From the NCBI GenBank assembly GCA_022566355.1, contig JADFJB010000015.1:1-50322 (forward strand): a stretch of 50,322 nucleotides of DNA, in the 5' to 3' direction. The position numbers and the translations under genes are program-made. This DNA is from a candidate division KSB1 bacterium. Its GTDB lineage: Bacteria > Zhuqueibacterota > JdFR-76 > DREG01. The notes beneath the pieces were generated by a model that saw only the letters and a list, made by a program, of their open reading frames with translations, was not told where the DNA came from and did not search any database. Shown piece after piece: positions 13,849-31,973 of the stretch (the stretch's first letter is position 1; every line of letters begins with the position of its first letter).

Positions 13849-14584
13849 ATGTTTTTATTATTAACTTTGATAGGTTTATTGGCAGGTATTCTTATTGGCA
13901 CGATTGGAATCGGAGGTGTTATTCTTGTGCCCTTGCTCAGTTTCGTGTTGGGGATCGATCTGCATATCGCCATGTCGGCAAGCAGCTTGAGTTTTTTGTT
14001 TCCAGGCATCGTTGGTACACTCACTTATGCCAATAAAAGATCAATTGTCTGGGAAAAAGTGTTGTGGTTAAGTGTTGGGATTATTCCGGCAGCGCTACTC
14101 GGGGCGCTTGTAAATACCAATCTCAATACGGACGTACTGGTCTTGATCGTGGCTGGATTGATCGCCTTTTCCGGGATAAATGTGTTTATCAATCGTCAGA
14201 ATGAATCCGGAGTAATACCCGATTTCAGAAAACCGTTGTTGATTATTATAGGCGCTTTGGTTGGCTTCGGTTCATCCTTAACCGGGGACGGGAGGGCCGG
14301 TTCTTTTGGTGCCAATACTGATAACACTGCATTACCCGGCGTTAAAATCAATCGGCATCAGTCAGGCTATTCAACTGCCGATTGCGGTCTTTGCAGTGAT
14401 TGGTTTTTGGCTCTATGGTCAGATCGACCTGGGATTGGGGTTGCACTTGGGAATCGCCCAAGCGGCCGGTGTATATATTGGCGCACAAATTGCGCATCGT
14501 TTGCCAATTGTTCAGCTGAGACGCTTGGTGGCCATAGCATTAATCGGAGTTGGCGCGATGATGATCTGGCAGATTGTTGTTTAG
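13849..14584 (+). pseudogene. Sulfite exporter TauE/SafE family permease with a frameshift
   Basis: The first part (from ATG 13849) is a multi-helix membrane protein with 'GLLAGILIGTIGIGGVILVPLL' split over residues 7-28, a TauE/SafE N-terminal repeat. Near 14288-14293 the frame shifts; removing one G from 'GACGGGAGGG' restores 'LTGDGGPVLLVPILI', the expected second-repeat motif. The frame then runs to a TAG at 14584 with three or four more helices and 'AAGVYIGAQIAHRLP'. The intact protein would have about 245 residues. By family it would export anions such as sulfite or organosulfonates. Without the repair, the first frame continues as non-membrane sequence to 14700. Confidence 0.82.
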
Positions 14585-14826
14585 TGCCTGAGAAGTCTAA
14601 TTCTGCCAAACTCGATAAAAGCATTCGAGCACAAGCTTTTTGGCAAAACATGAAATCACAAATCGCAAAAGCCAAATGGGCGTCGTCTTTACTCGGTTGA
14701 TAAGAAAGGCTGTGAACTTTTCGAGTCACCACAATTAAATTGCCATTCAAATGTTTTTAATAATTATATTAAATTTGTTATCCCATGAGGTAAAAAACTG
14801 AGGACACCGAAAAAAGCAAAGAGTTA

Positions 14827-14928
14827 ATGATGATAGGTAGAACCGTTTCACATCATAAGATTTTGGGAAAGCTTGGCGAAGGCGGGAACCTGTCCCGCAC
14901 ATTAAACTCCTTGGAAACCAAAATATGA
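14827..14928 (+). pseudogene. Ser/Thr kinase N-terminal fragment 1
   Basis: A 33-codon frame beginning 'MMIGRTVSHHKILGKLGEGGN', the opening of a Pkn-type kinase up to the glycine-rich loop (GEGGMG in intact members). Directly after GGCGGGA the sequence departs from the kinase and forms GCGGGA-ACCTG-TCCCGC, a short perfect inverted repeat. The stop overlaps the ATG of fragment 2 (ATGA). Confidence 0.7.
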
Positions 14929-15038
14929 TTGGACAAAATATACCTCATTACGAAATTCTTGAAAAACTTGGCGAAGGCGGGAACTTCCCGACGAATCGGG
15001 ACAAGTCGTCCCGCACAAACTTTCTTTGGCTGATATAA
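14925..15038 (+). pseudogene. Ser/Thr kinase N-terminal fragment 2
   Basis: A 37-codon frame starting 'MIGQNIPHYEILEKLGEGGNF'. It too leaves the kinase sequence exactly at the glycine-rich loop, with nested palindromes (TCCCGA-CGAA-TCGGGA inside GCGGGA...TCCCGC). The tail 'CCCGCACA.AAACT..CTTTGG' resembles the tails after fragment 1 and after the fragment at 17401. It ends three bases before the next kinase ATG. Confidence 0.7.
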
Positions 15039-15040
15039 CA

Positions 15041-16435
15041 ATGATAGGAAATACAATTTTACATTACAAAATCCTCGAAAAGCTTGGATGAAGGCGGGAT
15101 GGGCGTCGTTTACAAGGCTGAGGACACCAAGCTCAAACGCGACGTCGCCGTCAAATTCCTGCCGCGCCAGATTGCGGCGAGCGAGGAAGATCGTAAACGT
15201 TTCAAAATTGAAGCGCAGGCTGCGGCTGCATTGAACCACCCGAACATCGCCACGATCCATGCTATCGAAGAAATTGAAGGTGACATGTTCATCGTCATGG
15301 AATACATTGAGGGAAGTGAATTGAAAGATGTTGTAGGGGCGAAGCATTCAAGAGTACATGCAGATACAATTTCAAAAATAAATGAGCAGAATGCTTCGTC
15401 CCTACAGTTGGAAAATATTGTCACCTACGCCATACAAATCGCTTCCGGCCTGCAAACCGCGCACGAAAAAGGCATCACACATCGCGACATCAAATCCGCC
15501 AACATTATGATCACCGACAAAGGCCAGGTCAAGATCATGGATTTCGGGTTGGCTAAGATTGCTGGCGGGGCTCAGTTAACCAAAGTCCAATCCACCCTCG
15601 GCACGGCTGCCTACATGTCACCGGAGCAAGCACGGGGCGAGGAGGTAGATCAGCGCAGTGACATCTGGTCATTCGGCGTGGTTTTGTATGAGATGCTTAC
15701 CAGCCAACTGCCTTTTAAAGGCGACTACGAACAGGCGGTGATTTATTCCATTTTGAATGAAGATCCGCAGCCGGTTGCGGAATTGCGCAACGATTTTCCG
15801 GAAGATCTCGAAAGCATCGTCAATAAATGTTTGCAGAAAGAAGCCAAAGACCGGTACCAGAATACCGAAGACCTGCTGACCGATTTACAGAAAATTGCCG
15901 TAGGCGCAGGTTCGAAATCTGGAAAAGTAGAGGCACATCGCAATGCACCTCTATGGAAACGGACATTTTTATATGGCGGAATTGCCGCCCTGATTCTATT
16001 ATCCCTTGGCGGCTTTTTACTCTTTGGGCCTGAAGATGAAGCGCCCAAGGAACGCGTACCTATTGCAGTCGTAGATTTTGTCAACCAGACCAATGAGCCT
16101 GAGCTCGACGGTCTTTCCGGCATGTTGATTACCCCACTCGAACAATCCAGAAGACTGGACGTCATGTCGCGTACGCGCATGTACGACGAGTTCAAACAAA
16201 TGGACAGGCCCGAGCTGACTTTTGTCGATGAAACGACAGGCCGTGAAATTGCCAAACGAGCAAATTTGAGCGCCCTGGCGGTGGCGACGATTCGGAAATT
16301 CGGGCAGCTTTACACCGTCGATTTCAAGGTCATTGACCCGCAAACCGGCGACCGAATTTTCTCCACCAAAGTGGAGGGCAATGGCCAGGAAAGTATCCCC
16401 GGCCTGCTCGACCAGCTCTCCGACAAGACCCGGAT
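15041..16435 (+). pseudogene. Ser/Thr protein kinase (Pkn type), frameshifted front, fused to a second kinase's tail
   Basis: The ATG at 15041 starts 'MIGNTILHYKILEKLG', then one extra base near 15086 breaks the frame. From 15084 the correct frame gives 'DEGGMGVVYKAEDT', the ATP lysine in 'VAVKFLP', 'THRDIKSANIM' (catalytic HRD), 'MDFGLA' (DFG) and 'AAYMSPEQARG' (APE), so the catalytic core is complete. A membrane helix follows (about residues 305-323 of the frame from 15084), then a periplasmic region ('IAVVDFVNQTNEPELDGL' to 'GLLDQLSDKTR'). In intact relatives this continues into TPR-type sequence; here it switches near 16435 to a different, out-of-frame sequence. A 25-codon palindromic insert sits after 'SELKDV'. 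Confidence 0.75.
15333..15405. repeat. 73-bp palindromic insert inside the kinase reading frame
   Basis: GTAGGGGCGAAGCATTC (15333-15349) and GAATGCTTCGTCCCTAC (15389-15405) are inverted repeats matching at 16 of 17 positions, with a 39-base centre. It adds about 25 residues between 'ELKDV' and 'LENIVTYA', a place where kinases of this kind have a short loop, and keeps the frame open. Confidence 0.8.
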
Positions 16436-17398
16436 AATCTTGCTTACCGTTACGGTTTTTCTCAGGAAGGCTCTTTATTCTTTGTCAAAAGTGTGCAAGA
16501 GGGCGGAAACAACCTGGTCTGGGTAGATCGTAATGGCATAGAAACTGAAGTCCCGGCAGCGTCTCACCTTTATTGGGACCCTCGGGTTTCTCCGGATGGC
16601 CGCCGCGTTGCGGTGAATGCGCGGGATGCCGGCAATGACATATGGGTCTATGACCTTAGTCGTGGCTCGCTGTCCCGATTGACGCATGATCCAGGCGAAG
16701 ACGAGACCGCATTCTGGTCGTCTAATGGACGGTGGATAGCCTTCTCCTCATCTCGGGCTGGATAACCTCGCAGTATCTACAGAAAACTTTCTGATGGCAG
16801 CGGCGAGGAAGAACTACTTTGGACCGGCGACCATCACATGCACGTGGACTCCTGGTCAGCCGACGGCAAATCGATTATCTTAACTGATGACGCTCCAACA
16901 ACATTGCAAGATTTGTGGGTCCTTAACCTGGAGGGCGAACCCTCTACGCAGCCGTTGTTGCGGACGCCTTACAGAGAAAGCAACGGTAGAATCTCTCCGG
17001 ATGGCCGTTGGATTGCCTACGAATCGGATGAATCGGGGCAATGGGAAATATACATTCAGGCTTTTCCGGGATTGGGTAAAAAGGTACTTGTGTCGACACG
17101 GGGCGGAAACCAGGCGATATGGAGTCACGATGGCAGCGAGCTATTCTATCGTGGTGAAGGCAGCATCATGGCTGTCAAAGTTCAGTCTGGCGAAACGCTT
17201 TCCGTCACACCCCCAAAGCCCCTGTTTCGAGACCAATACGCACTTAGAACTCAAAATCATCACATCTCTTTTTCAGTATCAAAAGACGGTAAACAGTTCC
17301 TGATGCTAAAGGGAGAACCGCAGACGCATATAACTCATCTGGAAGTCGTGAATAATTGGTTTGATGAGGTGAAGAGAAAAGCGCCTACAGGCAAATGA
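16436..17398 (+). pseudogene. C-terminal TolB-like propeller of a second Ser/Thr kinase, with an in-frame stop
   Basis: In a frame shifted from the upstream kinase the sequence reads 'YGFSQEGSLFFVKSVQEGG' and 'LVWVDRNG', then PD40 propeller blades ('RVSPDGRRVAV', 'DIWVYDLSRGSLSRLT', 'RISPDGRWIAYESDES'), ending in 'NWFDEVKRKAPTGK'. This is the usual sensor half of another subfamily of the same kinases. A TAA at 16763-16765 interrupts the frame after 'SSSRAG'; translation resumes in the same frame ('PRSIYRKLSDGSGEE'), so it is a nonsense change rather than an indel. Its own kinase domain is absent, so it is the rear end of a gene whose front was deleted or recombined away. Confidence 0.78.
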
Positions 17399-17400
17399 AT

Positions 17401-17577
17401 ATGATTGGACAAAAAATACTTCATTTACCCCGTGGGATAAGACAGTCAGAGCTTTTGGGTTCCAACGCCCCAAGGTTAAGTAAAAAAGTCGATATTCGAG
17501 TTCAGACAAATTTGTTACCCAACAGGGTAAACAAAATCCACGAAAAGCTTGGCGAAGACGGTACCTACCCTGCATAA
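17401..17577 (+). pseudogene. Ser/Thr kinase N-terminal fragment 3, with an internal insert
   Basis: Starts 'MIGQKILHL' three bases after the propeller stop codon, then about 40 codons of unrelated sequence containing short palindromes (for example TTACCC-AACA-GGGTAA), then 'NKIHEKLGEDG' and a stop. So the kinase opening was split between 'ILH' and 'KI.EKLGE', and again cut at the glycine-rich loop. Confidence 0.6.
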
Positions 17578-17599
17578 ACTTACTTTGGATTATTTCACC

Positions 17600-17700
17600 A
17601 TGATAGGAAATACAATTCCATTCATGCCATTGAAGAACAGGATTATGAAATGTTCATTGTGATGGAATACATCGAAGGAAAGGAATTAAAAATAGCCTAG
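17600..17700 (+). pseudogene. Ser/Thr kinase fragment 4 with internal deletion
   Basis: 'MIGNTI' is joined out of frame to 'HAIEEQDYEMFIVMEYIEGKELKIA' (17623-17697; shown here in its two parts 'HAIEEQDYEMF' and 'IVMEYIEGKELKIA'), which matches the chimeric kinase region 'HAIEEIEGDMFIVMEYIEG'. The whole ATP-binding lobe between is gone. It ends at a TAG followed by a GC-rich palindrome. Confidence 0.65.
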
Positions 17701-17702
17701 GG

Positions 17703-17727
17703 GTACGGGGGCGCACCATGCCCCTAC
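17703..17727. repeat. GC-rich palindrome directly after kinase fragment 4
   Basis: GTACGGGGGC-GCACCAT-GCCCCTAC, an inverted repeat of the same GTAGGGGC/GCCCCTAC type as the insert at 15333-15405, and at the equivalent position of the kinase gene. A second small hairpin, CCTTA-GCGT-TAAGG, follows directly. Confidence 0.6.
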
Positions 17728-17749
17728 CTTAGCGTTAAGGTATTTTATT

Positions 17750-17867
17750 ATGGCAATAATCCTCAACAGGATCAGGATCGAGGAGAAAATGTTGATCGAA
17801 GAATTCGGGAGATGCTGTACCTGAAGTATAGGGAAGCTCGAACAAGCTGATTTCATTCATCTATTGA
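17750..17867 (+). pseudogene. Remnant of an isoprenylcysteine-carboxyl-methyltransferase-like C-terminus
   Basis: Reading across frames gives 'NRIRIEEKMLIEEFGDA', 'LKYREARTS' and 'KLISFIY' followed by a stop. This resembles the C-terminal end of ICMT/PEMT-type membrane methyltransferases ('..EE.ML...FG..Y..Y...T..LIP..'). At least two indels separate the pieces. It is too short for certainty; it may equally be a chance likeness. Confidence 0.4.
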
Positions 17868-18340: not shown

Positions 18341-19482
18341 ATGTATACAAGGCAAGTATTTCAAACCAGGTTGGCAAAACGATACTGTCACACAGATGAC
18401 AGCGTTTGCCGAAGAACACCGAAACTACCTGGATGAGTGTACACGGACGACTCGTTTTCCCCGCGACTTGTACCTGGAAATGGGCGGGCGGGGTTGGGTC
18501 GGGCCGATGACGTCGACGAAATATGGCGGATTGGGCGCAGGTGTGCCTGAATACTGTCTCATCGAAGAAGAGGTGGGCAGGCTGGGGTTGGTCTCGCCGC
18601 AAATCTCGATTCAGGGTCAGCTTTGGCTGAAGATATGGGGCAGCAACGAGCAGAAACGACGCTACCTGAAGGGGATGGCTGATGGAAAAATCATCTTTTG
18701 TGAAGCCATCTCGGAGCCGGACGTTGGCTCCTCGCTGAAGTTAATGCAAACCACCGCCCAGCGCGATGGTGGGGATTGGGTTTTGAACGGGCGCAAAACC
18801 CATATCAACCTGGGTCATCAGGCCGACGTAATGATTGTATACGCGATGGCAGAGCAAGGAATAACATCCTTTTTGGTGGACGCTAATGAGAATGGCATCA
18901 CTACGAAACAGACCTCCCCCATCGGCTTGCGTTTGATTCCCACCGCCGACGTCGCCTTCGAGTCCGTGCGCGTGCCCGATGCTGCCCGATTAGGAGAACC
19001 AGGCCAGGGCATTAAGACTTTGCTCTCAACATTCAACGTCAGCCGTCTAGGCAACGCCTCAGAGTTGATTGGCTTTGGCCGGCGGGCGCTTGGCGGAGGC
19101 GATAACGTATGCACGAGAGCGGCAGGTGGGCGAAGGAGTGGTAACCGATTTCCAGGGTATCCAATGGACCGTTGCCGACGCTTACAGCAAGCTGTATGCG
19201 TCCTCACTGGCCCGAGACCAGGCGGCACGATTGGCGGATTTGGATCAAGACCATGCCCTCGAAACAACGTTAGCCAAAAAGTTGGCCATAGACGCTGCCG
19301 AATACGCTGTCAACGAATCCTTTGGCCTCGTTGGCGGTTATGGTTTGTATGAGAGTACTCCGTTTCAACAAATCCTCAGCGATATGAAGGTGCTGCGAGT
19401 GGCAGGTGGTTCCCTGGAAATCCTGCGCAACTATATCGCCCGCCGCGTGCTTCGATCTGATGATTACGAGGGACTGGCATGA
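18341..19482 (+). pseudogene. Acyl-CoA dehydrogenase with frameshift(s)
   Basis: An acyl-CoA dehydrogenase of about 375 residues. The middle domain ('FCEAISEPDVGSSLKLMQTTA', in halves; 'GRKTHINLGHQADVMIVYA') and the C-terminal helical domain ('GLVGGYGLYESTPFQQILSDMK') are clear. One extra G in 'CTTGGCGG' (19090-19095) breaks the frame; removing it joins 'RRAL' to 'AEAITYARERQVG'. A good ribosome binding site (AAAGGAG, 18329-18335) precedes an ATG at 18341, but that ATG is one base out of frame with 'GKYFKPGWQNDTV' and 'MTAFAEEHRNY', so a second small indel near 18350 is likely; otherwise the start is the ATG at 18396. By family it is an FAD enzyme introducing an alpha-beta double bond into an acyl-CoA. 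First gene of the GC-rich operon. Confidence 0.8.
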
Positions 19483-20987
19483 AAAACCTGGCCCAACTGA
19501 TTCTTGACCGTGCAGAGCGACGACCGGATGCGCTTTTTGGCGTCGTCGAGCATCCTATAATGTTGGCCGACGTTGTAGCGATTGCCCGGGAGAGCGTCAG
19601 CAAGTTCGCCGTCGCCGGTCTGGTTACGGGAATGAGGGTGGCGGTGATAGGCTCCACGAGCACCAGCTACCTGGTGGCGTGGACAACACTGCAACTGGCC
19701 GGCGTAGAGACGGCGATGATAAACCCCACGCTGCCCGATGATTTGATTCGGCAGATGCTGTCCAATCTGCAGGTGGATGGGGTGGTTTGGGTTGGTCGGA
19801 CGCCTCAGGCTAGCATTCAACCGAACGCTTGCCACATAGACGCCACCCACTTAGCCCAGCATCAACTGTTGCTATACGATCAGGAAGCCAAAACTATCGT
19901 CTCTTTAGAGGCGGACGGGGAGGAGACGGCTCTGGGTGGTCTATCCCGAGACGCAACGGATATTGCAGGTTATATGCACACCTCGGGTACCACCGGGCTG
20001 CCCAAATTCTGTGCCCAGTCCCAGCGTTACTTTCTCAGCCTGGGGCGCTTTATCGCCGATTCTATGGCGCTCTCACCGTCAGACACGGTCTTTGCGCCGC
20101 TGTCCATGTTCCACATCAATCCATTGGGCTATGGCGTGGTGGGTGGGCTAGTGGGTGGTGCGAATGTGCTGGGAACGACTCGCTTTTCCGTCCGTCGTTT
20201 TTGGTCAATGGTCAAGGATAACAACGTGACGGTCGTCTTTTTGCACGCCCCGCCCGTAGAGATATTAAAAAAATCGACCACGCCCGAGGATGCCGCCGGT
20301 CACAAGATTCGCTGTGTTTTTTTCGCCGACCAGGACTTTATGAGCAAATTTCAAATACCGCTGGGCTATTCTTGCTACGGCTCCACCGAGGCCGGCGGGT
20401 TGTGTCACATCTGGAGCTGGCGTCTGGGCGAGCTTTGTCCCCACCCCGAGGGGATGTCGCGCTATGCCGGCATCCCGCGCCACGACGTCGAATGGAATTT
20501 GAGCGACGACGGCGAAATCCTGATGCGCGGAAAACAAGACCATATCCTGTCCTCCGGCTATCAGACGGCCGACGGCCTGGTTCCGCTGATGGCTGAGGAT
20601 GGCTGGTTTCATACAGGTGACCTCGGTCGACGGGACGAACATGGTCGTTTGATTTTCATCGAGCGCCAGGCTGAGTCTATTCGAGTCAAGGGAGAGTATG
20701 TATCTATCCCCTATGTCGAAGGCGTGTTTGCTGAAATCGAGGAAATTGTCGAGTTAGCGCTGTGGCGGGAGAACAGCGTCCTGGTGGACCACCGCGTCGT
20801 GTTATACGTCGTCGTACCAGAGGCGCTGCCGAAAGAAAAATTGCTTGCGAGAGCGCAGACTTTACCCCCCTTTATGCGGCCCTCGTTGGTTGTGCGGGTT
20901 GAATCTCTGCCGCGCATTGCCGGGGTAGGCAAGGTGAGCCGTTGTCAACTTGGCAAGACTAAGGTCTGTGAGAAATTTGAGCTTTAA
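19479..20987 (+). CDS. AMP-dependent acyl-CoA synthetase / carboxylate-CoA ligase
   Basis: 502 residues of the ANL adenylating family. The P-loop motif is 'HTSGTTGLPK', the A5 motif 'YGSTEAGG', the A7 motif 'GWFHTGDLGR' (Asp for ribose binding), and the C-terminal catalytic Lys sits in 'GVGKVSR'. It activates a carboxylic acid with ATP and CoA; the acid is not predictable. The ATG overlaps the dehydrogenase stop codon (ATGA), so the two are translationally coupled. The frame is intact although both neighbours in the operon are broken, and the base composition matches the rest of this GC-rich block. Confidence 0.9.
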   Translation: MKNLAQLILDRAERRPDALFGVVEHPIMLADVVAIARESVSKFAVAGLVTGMRVAVIGSTSTSYLVAWTTLQLAGVETAMINPTLPDDLIRQMLSNLQVDGVVWVGRTPQASIQPNACHIDATHLAQHQLLLYDQEAKTIVSLEADGEETALGGLSRDATDIAGYMHTSGTTGLPKFCAQSQRYFLSLGRFIADSMALSPSDTVFAPLSMFHINPLGYGVVGGLVGGANVLGTTRFSVRRFWSMVKDNNVTVVFLHAPPVEILKKSTTPEDAAGHKIRCVFFADQDFMSKFQIPLGYSCYGSTEAGGLCHIWSWRLGELCPHPEGMSRYAGIPRHDVEWNLSDDGEILMRGKQDHILSSGYQTADGLVPLMAEDGWFHTGDLGRRDEHGRLIFIERQAESIRVKGEYVSIPYVEGVFAEIEEIVELALWRENSVLVDHRVVLYVVVPEALPKEKLLARAQTLPPFMRPSLVVRVESLPRIAGVGKVSRCQLGKTKVCEKFEL

Positions 20988-21001
20988 ACGGAGGAGGCTA
21001 T

Positions 21002-21805
21002 ATGGACTATCAAGATATTCAGGTTGAGATCTCTGACCGCGTCGCTATCATCTCGCTGCAAAAGCCAGAATCCGGCAATACGATTTCCGACGCCCGAATA
21101 ATTGAGGAATTAGAGACCGCTATCGGTGCTATGCAGGCTTCCAACGATGTATCGGTTCTTATCCTGACCGGTAGCGGCAAGATTTTTAGTGCAGGTGGGA
21201 ACGTGAAGGCCATGCGCGACCACAGCGGCATGTTTAACGGCGAACCCATTGAAGTGTATGAGAATTATCGCGGAGGCGTGCAACGCATTACCCGGCTAAT
21301 GGCACAACTGGATCTGGTTACTCTGGCGGCCGTTAACGGCACGGCGATTGGAGCCGGTTGCGACCTGGCTCTGATGTGCGATTTACGTATCGCTGCCCGC
21401 AGCGCCCGTTTTGGGCAGGGTTTTGTCAATTTGGGCATCATCCCCGGCGACGGTGGAGCCTGGTTTTTGGCGCGGACTGTGCCGCGTCACATTGCGGCGG
21501 ACCTCATCTTTTCGGGGCGGTTGGTCGGCGCAGAGGAAGCGCTGCAGATGGGTTTGGTCAATGAAGTGGTAGACGACGAGCAACTGCTGCCCCGCGCGCG
21601 GGAAATCGCCGCCGTCATCGCGGGCAAACCGCCTCTGGCATTAAAACTGAGCAAACGGCTGCTCAACAAAGCATATGAACAGTCCCTGCCCGACTATTTG
21701 GACACATGCGCCGCCTATCAATCGCTGCTGCACCCCACGGCCGACCATCGGGAAGCGCTGGCGGCGTTCTTTGAGAAACGCCCTGGGAAGTATCAAGGAA
21801 AATGA
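21002..21805 (+). CDS. Enoyl-CoA hydratase/isomerase (crotonase) family protein
   Basis: 267 residues. The oxyanion-hole sequences are present: 'SAGGNVKAM' and 'IGAGCDLALMCDLRIA'. At the two usual catalytic glutamate positions this protein has Gly ('FGQGFVNLG') and Asp ('IIPGDGGAWFL'), so it is not a standard hydratase; the PGDGG form is known in other crotonases (isomerases, hydrolases, hydratase-lyases). The ribosome binding site GGAGGAG ends about six bases before the ATG, and the stop codon overlaps the next start (ATGATGA). Its reaction is best thought of as acting on the alpha-beta unsaturated CoA ester made by the dehydrogenase. Confidence 0.88.
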   Translation: MDYQDIQVEISDRVAIISLQKPESGNTISDARIIEELETAIGAMQASNDVSVLILTGSGKIFSAGGNVKAMRDHSGMFNGEPIEVYENYRGGVQRITRLMAQLDLVTLAAVNGTAIGAGCDLALMCDLRIAARSARFGQGFVNLGIIPGDGGAWFLARTVPRHIAADLIFSGRLVGAEEALQMGLVNEVVDDEQLLPRAREIAAVIAGKPPLALKLSKRLLNKAYEQSLPDYLDTCAAYQSLLHPTADHREALAAFFEKRPGKYQGK

Positions 21806-22618
21806 TGACAGGTATCGTTGACGTGCACGTTCACGCGGCCCCCAGCTTATTGCCCAGGCGCTACACAGACCCCGAGATGGCTCGGATTGCAAAAGCGGCA
21901 GGCGTTGTGCGATGGGTGTTAAAAGCCCACCATGGTTCCTCCGTCGAGCGGGCGGCGTTGGCCGGACCGGAGACGGTGGGCGGGGTCGTGTTGAATTCCC
22001 CCGTCCGGCGGGGCAAATCCCGATGCCGTTGCCGTGGCAGCCTCACTGGGGGGACGCATGGTGTGGATGCCGACAATATCCGCCGCCGCCCACATCGCGG
22101 CGCAAAGCCAGGCTGCATTGAGCGTTCATCGCAAACTCGCATTTTCACCAGTACCCGTTTGCGATGACGACAAGTTGGGCTCTGAATGGCTCCCGGTGTT
22201 GGACCTCATCGCCGACCACGACCTGGTACTCGGTTCCGGGCACGTCAGCATGGATGAAACCCTTTGTCTTTTTAAGACGGCGGTCTCCAGGGGGGTGAAG
22301 CGCTTGCTCATTAACCATCCCCTGATGCCCTTTTTGGGCTGGCGAGATGAGCATGGTGACGAGTTCTCCCGACTTGGAGCGCGAATCGAAATCGGCGTCC
22401 TGGCAGACCATCTGTCCGAGACCGAGATTTCACCCACCGAATACCTGGCATCCCACTATCCTAACGAACTGTTGCTGTTCGGCAGCGACCTGGGCCACAC
22501 CTCATTTCCAGACTACCATGCCGGGATAAAAGATTGGATAGAACGAGTGGAACCGATCGTTGGCGAGAGACAGTTGGAAAAAATTATGACCAGGAATGGT
22601 CAGGAGTTACTCGGCTAA
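21802..22618 (+). pseudogene. DUF6282 family metal-dependent-hydrolase-like protein with a frameshift
   Basis: Starts 'GIVDVHVHAAPSLLPRRYTD' with an HxH motif, then 'LKAHHGSS', and after the shift 'GANPDAVAVAASLGGRMVWMPT', 'SGHVSMDE', 'LLINHPLM' and 'LFGSDLGHTSFPDY'. These His and Asp residues are placed as in amidohydrolase-like TIM barrels, and the N-terminal phrases match the uncharacterised DUF6282 family as I remember it. The break is one extra C in 'GTCCGG' (22003-22008): removing it restores 'NSPVGGANPDA'. The intact protein would have about 271 residues. Both gene junctions overlap (start with the crotonase, stop with the next ATG). Confidence 0.75.
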
Positions 22619-23682
22619 TGATTCGACTGGCAATTTTACCGGGGGACGGCATCGGAAGCGAGGTGCTGGCAGGTCCTATTGAAATATTAGAGAGGCTCGC
22701 TGTAGATGGTCGGGTGGAAATCACCGGTCCCTGGCCCGTGGGTGCTTCGGCTTATCTGGAGACCGGCGAAGGTCTGCCCGCCGCGACCCTGGTGGCGTGC
22801 GAGGCCGCCGACGCTATTCTTTTCGGCGCTGTTGGCGACCACCCCGGCTTTGATGCCCGGGAGTATCGGCCCGAACTGGCTCTGCTGCGCTTGCGAGAGC
22901 ATTTCGACCTAAGAATAAGTATTCGCCAAATCTGGCGCGGGGAACAACCGCCCCTCACTATTGTGCGTAATATATTAGGAGGGGCTTATGGGACTGCCGA
23001 GACCCGTCAAGAGAGCGATGGCCGTCAGCCCGCAACGGACCAAATTCGCTTGACGCCGGAACAAATCCAAGAGGTCGTCGAAATCGCGTGCGACTATGTG
23101 ACTGAAACAGGTGGTTTGGTCTCTGTGGACAAGGCAAATCTGTTGGCGACCAGTAGGCTTTGGCGTAGGATTGCAACACAAGTGACCGAGGAACGGGCAC
23201 TGGCCTGTCGCCACGTCTACGTGGACCAATGCGCCTACGAGATGGGAAAACGTGGATTAAAAGAGTCTGTGCTGGTGACTGAAGGACTTTTTGGCGACAT
23301 TCTGAGCGACCTAGCCGCCGCCCAAGCCGGCTCTATCGCGTTGTGCAGTTCGGCCAGTGTTAACCCTCATGTATCCAAAAATGGTTGTTGTGTCGGTTTG
23401 TTCGAACCGCTACACGGTACAGCACCCGACATAGCCGGAAAGGGCATCGCGAATCCAACAGGGGGCTACCTGGCGCTGGCCGCTGCCTTCGAATGGTTCC
23501 CCCCGACGGCCGAGTTTGCCAACCTGCTGCGTAAAGCATTAACACAGGCGCTGGAGGATGGGCCGGTGCCCCGGGATATTGCCGCTCGGGGTGCAACCGT
23601 CGCCACCACGGCCGAATTTGCCCAACACGTAAACGCTGTGTTTTTCGACTTGATGTATGAGGAAAAAATGCCAACGATTTGA
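22618..23682 (+). CDS. Isopropylmalate/isocitrate-dehydrogenase family enzyme (LeuB-like)
   Basis: 354 residues starting 'MIRLAILPGDGIGSEV', with the NAD-dependent beta-decarboxylating dehydrogenase signatures: 'LLRLREHFDLRISIR' (substrate-arginine region), 'SVDKANLLATSRLWRR', 'HVYVDQCAYEM', 'LFGDILSDLAA' (metal Asp residues) and 'LFEPLHGTAPDIAGKGIANP'. It oxidises and decarboxylates a 2-hydroxy acid of the malate type. No leuA, leuC or leuD gene is near, and its partners are acyl-CoA enzymes, so leucine synthesis is unlikely; a substituted malate from a catabolic route fits better. The start at 22618 overlaps the stop of the preceding gene by one base. Confidence 0.88.
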   Translation: MIRLAILPGDGIGSEVLAGPIEILERLAVDGRVEITGPWPVGASAYLETGEGLPAATLVACEAADAILFGAVGDHPGFDAREYRPELALLRLREHFDLRISIRQIWRGEQPPLTIVRNILGGAYGTAETRQESDGRQPATDQIRLTPEQIQEVVEIACDYVTETGGLVSVDKANLLATSRLWRRIATQVTEERALACRHVYVDQCAYEMGKRGLKESVLVTEGLFGDILSDLAAAQAGSIALCSSASVNPHVSKNGCCVGLFEPLHGTAPDIAGKGIANPTGGYLALAAAFEWFPPTAEFANLLRKALTQALEDGPVPRDIAARGATVATTAEFAQHVNAVFFDLMYEEKMPTI

Positions 23683-28750: not shown

Positions 28751-30488
28751 TTCTTTCTAATTCCTCCTCAATCAATTGTTTGTAATAAAGATCCGCATAT
28801 TTTCCATCCAGTGCTAAAAGGGATTTATGATCTCCACTTTCGATAATCCTACCCTCATCCAGTACTAAAATTAAGTCCGAATCTGTTAAAGTAGTCACCC
28901 GATGGGATACGATGATTTTAGTAACACCGAAAAATTGAGTCTTGAGATTATTCAGAATTTTTCTCTCGGTAATTGTGTCCACAGCTGAAAGAGCATCATC
29001 CAAAATTAATATTTTTGGACGACCCAACGCAGCCCTGGCAATGGCAACTCTTTGTTTCTGTCCACCGGAGAGATTAATACCACGCTCACCCAGCAATGTA
29101 TCGTATTGGTCTGTGAACGTATCAATTTCATGTGCGATATGAACAGATTTAGCTATTTCCTCTAATTCTCTACTTGTCTTTTCGCCATTGCCAAAAGCAA
29201 TATTAGCTGCAATGGTTTCGGAAAAAAGGAAATCTTCCTGGGGCACTAATCCTATATTTTCTCGCAGGATGTTAAGAGGAACGCTTCGGATTTCGTGATC
29301 ACCAAAAAGAATTTTGCCTTTTCCCGGATCGTATAATCGTGCAATTAAATTAACAAGTGTTGATTTCCCGGAACCGGTGCCGCCAACTATGGCAACGAGA
29401 GAACCTTCCTTTATCTTGAAATGAATATCACTTATGGCATCATTTTCGCTGTTTTCGTATTTGAAGGATACATGTTGAAACGAAATTGAACCGGGTATTG
29501 TGGTAATTTGTTGATTGGTTTCTTCTGTATCTTTTATCCCGGGTTCTTCTGCCATAATTCTATTTATCCTGACTAAAGATGCAGCGCCCATTTGAAAGAT
29601 ATTCATTACCCAACCAATTGCTATCATCGGCCATATCAAGGAAGTCAGATAAGTATAAAACGCAACAAACTCTCCCAAAGTAATCTGTTGAGATATGACA
29701 CTCCTTCCGCCAAAATAAATTATGATTGCGAATGCAGATCCCGTCAGCAAGGTAATACTCGCGAACATCAATCCTCTCCATTTGGAGAGTTGCAGATTGT
29801 TTCTCAAATATTCCTGATTAATTTTATTAAATTGTTTGATTTGATATTTTTCCTGGCGATATGCCTTGATCACCCGAATCCCGGAAAAATTTTCTTCTAC
29901 TTTTGCCGTAACATCTGAGAAAATTGATTGAACACGATCAGATAAGCGAAACATTTTTTTTACAATGCGATTGACTGCAAATGCAACAATCGGAAATGGT
30001 GTGAGAGCAATTAAAGTTAGCTTTAAGTCGATGCTAATCATCATGATTACTGCGAAAGTCGTAAATAAGATAGTAAATGAGGAATACATGATTCCCGGTC
30101 CCAAAACATTCCTCACCGCATTGATATCATTAGTGCCACGGGCCATGATATCCCCGGTACGGCTTCGGTGGTAGAATTCAAGAGAAAGCTTTTGCAGGTG
30201 AGAAAAATAATCATTCCTGATATCATACTCAATTTTCCTGGAGATTTCGATTAGGACTTTTCTTTTATAAAAAAGAAAAATACTGGCCAGAGTGGCAACG
30301 GAGATGAATTTGAGTATTGAATTGTAAAAAGATTGATCAGCCCCGACCTCATTCAGAATATCGATAGGATCTTTTAGTAAGTATGGAACTGCAGCTGAAG
30401 TAATTGCGTGCATTAAAAGGACAAAAAAGCCAAAAGCGTATTCCTTCTTATATTTTTGCAGATATTTCTTAAGCTTAAATAATACCAA
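28743..30488 (-). CDS. ABC exporter half-transporter, degenerate-site subunit (BmrC/YheI-like)
   Basis: 581 residues: exporter membrane domain (about 15-310) plus ATPase domain. Walker A 'GGTGSGKST', canonical signature 'LSGGQKQR', but Walker B is 'ILILDDALSAVD', with Asp in place of the catalytic Glu. Paired with the downstream subunit this gives one competent and one degenerate ATP site, the hallmark of asymmetric heterodimers. The start is TTG at 30488, with AAAGGA upstream on the minus strand; no ATG is available near the N-terminus. First gene of a two-gene operon. Confidence 0.9.
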   Translation of the reverse strand: MVLFKLKKYLQKYKKEYAFGFFVLLMHAITSAAVPYLLKDPIDILNEVGADQSFYNSILKFISVATLASIFLFYKRKVLIEISRKIEYDIRNDYFSHLQKLSLEFYHRSRTGDIMARGTNDINAVRNVLGPGIMYSSFTILFTTFAVIMMISIDLKLTLIALTPFPIVAFAVNRIVKKMFRLSDRVQSIFSDVTAKVEENFSGIRVIKAYRQEKYQIKQFNKINQEYLRNNLQLSKWRGLMFASITLLTGSAFAIIIYFGGRSVISQQITLGEFVAFYTYLTSLIWPMIAIGWVMNIFQMGAASLVRINRIMAEEPGIKDTEETNQQITTIPGSISFQHVSFKYENSENDAISDIHFKIKEGSLVAIVGGTGSGKSTLVNLIARLYDPGKGKILFGDHEIRSVPLNILRENIGLVPQEDFLFSETIAANIAFGNGEKTSRELEEIAKSVHIAHEIDTFTDQYDTLLGERGINLSGGQKQRVAIARAALGRPKILILDDALSAVDTITERKILNNLKTQFFGVTKIIVSHRVTTLTDSDLILVLDEGRIIESGDHKSLLALDGKYADLYYKQLIEEELERIA

Positions 30489-30902
30489 TAAAAGTAGGTC
30501 CTTTTTCGTAATGTCACATGGTTTTGATTATCAATATCGAACAGAGTTTTTCATGAAAATCATTGATTTAATATTTATTATTTACAGTATTGGTTTTTCC
30601 CAAAATTATCCATCAATATTTTTGTTGTGAATGAAATACTTCTTTAATCTTAATGAATAATTTTCTTAATTTGGAATTTATAACATTGCCCTTGACTTTT
30701 AAAAATGCCTGGCTAGGAGATTTTACTAAAAACCCCTTGATTAAATTCTATTTTCCCCTTATGTTATGATCGATAATGAATCCAATTATTAATTTTTTCC
30801 CTTTTTCATTTTTCACACCTTTATTTCTCAAGTCACGTTTTCCTAGAAACGGAATTGTACTAATATTTAGCAAATCACATTTCATCTATTGAGGGAGAAA
30901 GA
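30489..30902. other. Divergent intergenic region between the ABC exporter operon and manC
   Basis: 414 AT-rich bases that must hold both promoters. CCCTTGACTTTTAA at 30689-30702 matches the -35 region of the integrase promoter, but no good -10 follows at the right distance. No gene or structured RNA was recognised. Confidence 0.45.
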
Positions 30903-31973
30903 ATGTTTATTGTAATTATGGCGGGGGGAAGCGGAAAGAGGTTTTGGCCTAAAAGTAAAGAAGCGAAACCCAAACAATTTTTACCCATACTCGATTCAAA
31001 AACCATGATCCAATCAACAGTGGAACGGTTAATTCCGCTTGTAGACTCTGATGATATTTATTATGTATTAAATTACCAGCAAAAAGATGTTCTACTGGAG
31101 CAAATAAGCAATATTCCGGATAAAAATATAATCCTGGAACCTACCGGAAAAAATACAGCGCCATGCATTGGATTAGCGGCGATCCACTTAAAACAAAAGA
31201 ATCCCGATGACGTTATGATAGTTCTCCCAGCAGATCATTTCATTAAGGATGAAGAAAGATTTCGAGAATCGTTGTTAATCGCTGAAAAGATAGCGATTGA
31301 ATATGATTCTTTGGTGACATTAGGAATAAAACCCGACTACCCAGCGACCGGGTACGGATATATTCAATGCAACGAAAAGATCAAAGAGGTTTCCGGGGTT
31401 TCGATTTATAAAGTTAAAACTTTTGCAGAAAAACCACAATATGAAACTGCCAAACAATTTTTGCAAAGCGGCGATTTTTTATGGAACAGCGGCATATTCA
31501 TTTGGAAAGTTTCTACTATACTAAAAGTAATTCAAAATTTATTACCGGAACTCTACTCTTCAATGGAAAAATTAGAGACCCACATAAATTCGAACAATTA
31601 TTACACACATCTTGAAAAGATTTACCGCCAAATAAGAAGTATTTCAATTGATTATGGTGTAATGGAATATGCAAAAAATGTATCCGTTCTTAAATGCGAA
31701 TTTGGCTGGAATGATGTTGGTAGTTGGGATGAAGTTTACAATCTTTCGCCCAAAGATAAAAACGGGAATACAATCATTGAAAATGGATTAACAATGGATT
31801 GTAAAAACTGCTATATAGATTCTGATTCCGATTTAATCGCCGTTTTAGGGGTTGATGACCTGGTTGTGGTAAAATCGGAAAATTCAATCCTGATTTGCAA
31901 AAAAGACAAAACTCAAGACGTTAAAGAATTGGTAGATAAAATAAAACGCAAAGAACTCGATCAATATTTGTAG
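30903..31973 (+). CDS. manC: Mannose-1-phosphate guanylyltransferase
   Basis: 356 residues of the nucleotidyltransferase-only type (no isomerase domain). The N-terminal pyrophosphorylase signature 'GGSGKRFWPKSKEAKPKQFL' (9-28) binds GTP; 'FAEKPQYETA' and 'FGWNDVGSWDEVY' are the family's sugar-binding motifs. It makes GDP-mannose from GTP and mannose-1-phosphate for surface glycans. GGGAGAAAG just before the ATG supports the start. It is followed at 7 bases by a small orphan gene and then by ptsN-like and zinc-ribbon genes on the same strand, which look like one transcript. Confidence 0.92.
   Translation: MFIVIMAGGSGKRFWPKSKEAKPKQFLPILDSKTMIQSTVERLIPLVDSDDIYYVLNYQQKDVLLEQISNIPDKNIILEPTGKNTAPCIGLAAIHLKQKNPDDVMIVLPADHFIKDEERFRESLLIAEKIAIEYDSLVTLGIKPDYPATGYGYIQCNEKIKEVSGVSIYKVKTFAEKPQYETAKQFLQSGDFLWNSGIFIWKVSTILKVIQNLLPELYSSMEKLETHINSNNYYTHLEKIYRQIRSISIDYGVMEYAKNVSVLKCEFGWNDVGSWDEVYNLSPKDKNGNTIIENGLTMDCKNCYIDSDSDLIAVLGVDDLVVVKSENSILICKKDKTQDVKELVDKIKRKELDQYL

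Follow-up and report, generated by a model that had tools for sequence, protein, structure and literature searches.

Here we describe a block of five genes at positions 18,342-23,682 (plus strand) of contig JADFJB010000015.1 of a candidate division KSB1 bacterium (assembly GCA_022566355.1), within a stretch of 50,322 nucleotides that was analysed as a whole and is referred to as the window. Comparison of gene content and order across genomes indicates that the block is a copy of a real, conserved catabolic module, apparently undescribed so far, with a core of an acyl-CoA dehydrogenase (ACD; CoA, coenzyme A), an adenylate-forming ligase, a DUF6282 protein and a LeuB-like dehydrogenase; in the window a crotonase-fold gene lies between the ligase and DUF6282 genes. 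All five gene families proposed in an earlier note on this DNA were recovered by Pfam (Acyl-CoA_dh, AMP-binding, ECH_1, DUF6282 and Iso_dh). We propose, as a reading that we regard as evenly balanced, that the module has spread laterally and would degrade a substituted dicarboxylic acid of the malonate or succinate type via a hydroxyacid-to-2-oxoacid step.

The intact ligase gene (19479..20987, plus strand), which encodes an adenylate-forming acyl-CoA ligase of 502 amino acids identified by the Pfam AMP-binding family, its relatives and a tree, marks the operon more specifically than any other of its genes. A scan of genome contigs with the single ligase sequence found no relative; a search with a two-row ligase alignment succeeded, yielding 31 loci from approximately 85,000 species genomes. 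Gene calls and their comparison revealed the order ACD-ligase-DUF6282-LeuB in 13 loci of Acidimicrobiia, including L012, where only the end of the ACD gene remains at the contig edge, and in locus L031 of Dormibacterota. DUF6282 stands beside the ligase in 19 of the 31 loci, as against 18 of 388 broadly sampled genomes that hold any DUF6282 at E 1e-10, so that chance co-occurrence is not credible; gene overlaps of 4 nt also recur across phyla. The earlier note had staked its proposal on the same gene set occurring in other genomes, and this conserved co-occurrence across phyla was indeed seen. Elsewhere, Virgisporangium (L024) holds all five families in the altered order ECH-ligase-DUF6282-LeuB-ACD, where ECH denotes the crotonase family and the ACD is 33% identical to the core type; LeuB directly follows the ligase in L016, and Nocardia (L029) has a ligase-LeuB pair.

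The ACD gene (18342..19482, plus strand) was assigned from Pfam, its reading frames and its identity to the intact Pseudonocardia copy. All three ACD domains (PF02771, PF02770 and PF00441) are present across two frames: the N-terminal and middle domains (18342-19100 by Pfam) are read from 18396 or slightly upstream, and the C-terminal domain lies in the other frame at 19069-19482 (19069-19479 by Pfam), the two parts being 57% and 58% identical to the Pseudonocardia copy. The catalytic glutamate is missing at both of its possible positions, with Gly at position 376 of medium-chain acyl-CoA dehydrogenase and Ser at position 254 of isovaleryl-CoA dehydrogenase, and it is also missing in the operon ACD copies of relatives. 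The YEG motif is replaced by AGG, or by GGG in Pseudonocardia, Amycolatopsis and some proteobacterial copies. GGG is found in benzylmalonyl-CoA dehydrogenase, for which it has been proposed that the alpha-carboxyl group is lost and that this takes over from proton abstraction (Schuhle et al. 2021, PMC8360864), and by analogy an alpha-carboxylated substrate for the base-less ACD is an attractive possibility.

The LeuB-like gene (22618..23682, plus strand) encodes an intact beta-decarboxylating dehydrogenase of 354 amino acids with an NAD-type APDI motif, as judged by Pfam Iso_dh and alignment. In 3-isopropylmalate dehydrogenases a set of conserved residues serves malate binding and oxidation, and in the LeuB-like protein the equivalents of all of these (R94, R104, R132, Y139, K185, D217, D241 and D245, in what we take to be the numbering of the T. 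thermophilus enzyme) are kept, as are the hydrophobic pocket positions E87, L90 and L91. The operon copies group as one clade (100/100 support), whose branch measures 2.88 changes per column, and all 8 of the other hosts checked had a second, true LeuB above the NCBIfam cut-off. No LeuC was found in the window genome, the best match (87 bits) lying in an aconitase-like frame of 908 residues; when a separate leucine-type LeuB was sought there, the inspected matches on contigs C7 and C78 looked isocitrate-dehydrogenase-like. The C7 gene (G000, 30423-31404, L064) is itself divided between two frames. By phylogeny and genomic context, then, the LeuB-like protein is a paralogue outside leucine synthesis, as the earlier note had supposed. 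It is rare, the operon type occurring in 2 of 396 sampled genomes from the phylum of L024, and in the second of these carriers (G757, contig L093) LeuB is the sole recognised member of the module. Comparison with plasmids returned just general relatives of LeuB and isocitrate dehydrogenase, below 60% identity.

The DUF6282 gene (21802..22618, plus strand) was identified by Pfam and by a barrel model of an intact relative. Its two halves score 63 and 98.9 bits against PF19799, for which the gathering cut-off is 26.8 bits. The structure examined was an AlphaFold2 model of the intact homologue from L031 (pLDDT, the model's confidence score, 91), which has eight barrel strands and the canonical metal-ligand pattern: near-invariant H8 and H10 (HxH) after beta1, H146 after beta5, H171 after beta6 and D228 after beta8. 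The best Foldseek matches include 4mup (Atu3138 of Agrobacterium, which we take to be a galactarolactone isomerase), 4d8l (2-pyrone-4,6-dicarboxylate hydrolase) and 2dvt (2,6-dihydroxybenzoate decarboxylase); a sequence search of the PDB with the Pseudonocardia DUF6282 gave no match. The model makes DUF6282 a predicted amidohydrolase-superfamily enzyme, and the earlier suggestion of a candidate hydrolase thus holds at superfamily level.

Positional evidence suggests that lineages differ in the families that they use for the amidohydrolase-superfamily and hydroxyacid-dehydrogenase roles, both of which look replaceable. In Variovorax (L023), in L025 and on a Cupriavidus plasmid (L066), the same ligase and an ACD are accompanied by an Amidohydro_2 protein and by a D-2-hydroxyacid dehydrogenase (2-Hacid_dh); polycarboxylate-binding TctC proteins are encoded inside the cluster in L025 and L066 and nearby in L023. 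In Acrocarpospora (L030) a 2-hydroxyacid dehydrogenase gene is divergent from the ACD gene, and the operon includes a Glyoxalase_4 protein, of a family that takes in methylmalonyl-CoA epimerases; in L021 a DUF1932 gene overlaps the ACD gene. This exchange of families and the missing ACD glutamate had both been overlooked in the earlier account. Genes of the 2-oxo-acid type also lie beside LeuB, which agrees with a 2-oxo acid as product: in Acidimicrobiia an OCD/mu-crystallin gene directly follows LeuB, overlapping it in L009, L018 and L019, and in L031 an HpaG-like FAA_hydrolase gene directly follows LeuB, with two DHDPS-family genes upstream.

In the reading that we propose, the ligase would convert the diacid to its CoA ester, which the base-less ACD would oxidise, perhaps with loss of the alpha-carboxyl group instead of a proton, in the manner of benzylmalonyl-CoA dehydrogenase. 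DUF6282 would open a ring or add water, and the LeuB-like enzyme would act on a 3-substituted malate whose side group is hydrophobic, oxidising and decarboxylating it; the resulting 2-oxo acid would be processed further by the lineage-specific 2-oxo-acid enzymes; the crotonase would be an accessory in some lineages. A narrower version is put forward only tentatively: the substrate, a substituted malonic acid or a related polycarboxylic acid, would be activated with CoA and oxidised decarboxylatively by the base-less ACD, DUF6282 would act as hydratase or lactonase and the LeuB-derived enzyme as oxidative decarboxylase, these last two being interchangeable with Amidohydro_2 and D-2-hydroxyacid dehydrogenase in Proteobacteria.

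Several points weigh against the proposed degradation of a substituted dicarboxylic acid. Carnitine- and pimelate-type ACDs also carry GG motifs, namely SGG and YGG (PMC8360864), which means that the missing glutamate is no proof of decarboxylation, and the ACDs of L023, L024, L025 and L032 are just 30-33% identical to the core type. LeuB is lacking from the ACD-ligase-DUF6282 operons of Amycolatopsis (L035), a Pseudonocardia plasmid (L004), L021, L030 and L036. The fold matches of DUF6282 are distant, with template modelling (TM) scores of approximately 0.5-0.66 and 12-18% identity, and literature searches for the gene combination or for DUF6282 returned nothing relevant.

The block itself is likely to be an import into the KSB1 genome, as proposed earlier. 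The GC content of its five genes is 0.55-0.57, compared with 0.33-0.50 in the surroundings and 0.41 in the whole window; it exceeds that of both flanks, as had been claimed, with 0.33 for the downstream gene and 0.49-0.50 for the closest upstream kinase remnant. At third codon positions the GC content (GC3) of the block is 0.58-0.65, against approximately 0.3-0.5 in most other window genes, which indicates that all five genes differ in coding style. In 98 other genomes, mostly from the phylum of the window genome, the ligase had no relative at E 1e-40, and the window genome holds a single DUF6282 copy; together with the compositional contrast, these results argue for import. The ligase and LeuB of the window each form a lone tree branch without strong support, with at most approximately 55% identity to any relative, so that no single donor can be named, and a search for insertion-site repeats around the block gave none that was convincing. 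The genes are closely packed, and the mostly overlapping stop and start codons described in the earlier note were found at three of the four junctions: 4 nt between the ACD stop and the ligase ATG, 4 nt between the crotonase stop and the DUF6282 ATG, and 1 nt between the DUF6282 stop and the LeuB-like start. The ligase end and the crotonase start are 14 nt apart.

Whether the import still serves a purpose in its present host is a separate matter, and the view that it is functionless, decaying debris there is nearly as probable as not; it is compatible with the proposed catabolic role, a reading of the module in general. The ACD gene is interrupted near 19,090 by a frame change that separates its N-terminal and middle domains from the C-terminal domain, and another near 22,010 divides the DUF6282 gene into two frames. 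Just upstream, a TauE/SafE-like permease gene (13849-14750) is apparently frameshifted, and at positions 14830-17800 the beginning of a Ser/Thr kinase gene is present in several tandem, truncated copies, together with a longer kinase split over frames. The remaining long genes of the window have open frames, and the stretch thus looks locally decayed. Against this view, the ligase, crotonase and LeuB-like frames are intact, the frame changes may be assembly errors, and decay in the window would have no bearing on function in other hosts. The full-length ACD and DUF6282 homologues of relatives are intact. With two of its genes broken, the module as a whole is probably non-functional in this genome.

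An order of steps that starts with ring opening is possible, though we rate it as doubtful. Here DUF6282 or Amidohydro_2 would act as a lactonase-like enzyme to give a hydroxy-diacid for LeuB or the D-2-hydroxyacid dehydrogenase, and the ligase, ACD and crotonase would then degrade the chain. The Atu3138 structure and 2-pyrone-4,6-dicarboxylate hydrolase among the best fold matches of DUF6282 speak for it, as do the genes for TctC receptors and molybdenum hydroxylases in the neighbourhood of some relatives, but fold similarity is a poor predictor of chemistry within the amidohydrolase superfamily and no constant ring-forming or ring-cleaving partner accompanies the module.

The linear route of the earlier note appears improbable. 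It would lead from a substituted succinate through its CoA ester, desaturation and hydration by the crotonase to a free substituted malate, released by DUF6282 and oxidatively decarboxylated by the LeuB-like enzyme. The gene content fits this order, the pocket and catalytic residues of LeuB are kept, and a malate-type hydroxyacid would also suit the D-2-hydroxyacid dehydrogenase that occupies the corresponding place in Proteobacteria. However, the crotonase is missing from the Acidimicrobiia operons, so that its rank as an essential member finds no support. The crotonase gene (21002..21805, plus strand; Pfam ECH_1) passes the fold match PF00378, and its closest subfamily is PRK09245, which it matches with 317.7 bits, under the cut-off of 354. 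Both usual glutamates are absent: in place of the Gly and Asp reported earlier, Asp stands at Glu144 and Phe at Glu164 of the rat enoyl-CoA hydratase, the Gly immediately preceding the Phe. The closest relative of the crotonase with a solved structure, 7mcm, likewise has Asp at the first site and no Glu at the second, and the substitutions are therefore a subfamily trait. The described methylsuccinyl- and benzylsuccinyl-CoA dehydrogenases retain the catalytic glutamate (GEG and VEG; PMC8360864), unlike the operon ACDs, and the nearest folds of DUF6282 are a lactone isomerase, a lactone hydrolase and a decarboxylase, with no thioesterase that would favour thioester release. A reading centred on the crotonase was dropped, since most operons lack the gene; by its distribution, the crotonase is not a core member and would be an accessory added by some lineages. 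Three Rhodoferax loci (L026, L027 and L028), which lack DUF6282 and LeuB, have ACD and ligase genes of the same types alongside genes for an MFS transporter, a crotonase and a GMC oxidoreductase.

That the LeuB-like gene belongs to ordinary leucine or branched-chain metabolism, as a stray gene for 3-isopropylmalate dehydrogenase, is highly implausible, for although its best NCBIfam match is TIGR00169 leuB, the score of 203 bits is under the cut-off of 353.2 (184 bits for one relative), and the separate clade, the true LeuB of the other hosts and the lack of LeuC in the window genome all stand against it.

Further genes were noted around the relatives. Upstream of the ACD gene, the Acidimicrobiia loci L009-L022 and L034 have in common an amidohydrolase, a cupin, a double-AAA protein and a distant gamma-glutamyltranspeptidase. 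Molybdenum-hydroxylase genes of the xanthine dehydrogenase type lie near the LeuB-less operons L004, L035 and L036, two of which additionally have FAH and metallo-beta-lactamase genes.

Recognition of the module places DUF6282, a family without explanation, in a predicted fold class and in a metabolic setting that recurs, and defines a family of LeuB-derived paralogues outside leucine synthesis. Its cultured carriers include Virgisporangium, Amycolatopsis and Variovorax, in which the substrate could be found by gene removal.

Among known systems, the indoleacetate (iaa) operon resembles the module in having a CoA ligase and an ACD, IaaF (benzylmalonyl-CoA dehydrogenase); GGG replaces YEG in IaaF, with AGG at this site in the window copy and GGG in the Pseudonocardia, Amycolatopsis and some proteobacterial copies. 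The epimerase-family gene of L030 is a further parallel, but no other iaa genes (mutase, hydantoinase) were recognised among the annotated neighbours of L004, and to our knowledge neither a LeuB-like protein nor DUF6282 is part of the described iaa route. The ethylmalonyl-CoA pathway, with its methylsuccinyl-CoA dehydrogenase (Mcd) and mesaconyl-CoA hydratase, shares the logic of converting a diacid-CoA to an unsaturated diacid-CoA, but has no ligase, LeuB or amidohydrolase, and its Mcd, in which the Glu is retained, is extended at the N-terminus (PMC5798300). The 3-sulfinopropionyl-CoA desulfinase shares the ACD fold and AGG for YEG (PMC8360864) but eliminates sulfite, and the window module shows no sign of a sulfur substrate. 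DUF6282 shares the predicted barrel and metal-ligand pattern of the amidohydrolase superfamily (LigI lactonase, Atu3138, dihydroxybenzoate decarboxylase), but at the low identity given above. The LeuB-like protein, finally, has the fold, all catalytic residues and the pocket positions 87, 90 and 91 of LeuB (TIGR00169, PRK03437), but falls below the curated cut-off, forms its own clade, is not encoded next to leuA, leuC or leuD, occurs in hosts that hold a true LeuB elsewhere, and carries the cofactor motif APDI in the window and APRH or similar in relatives.

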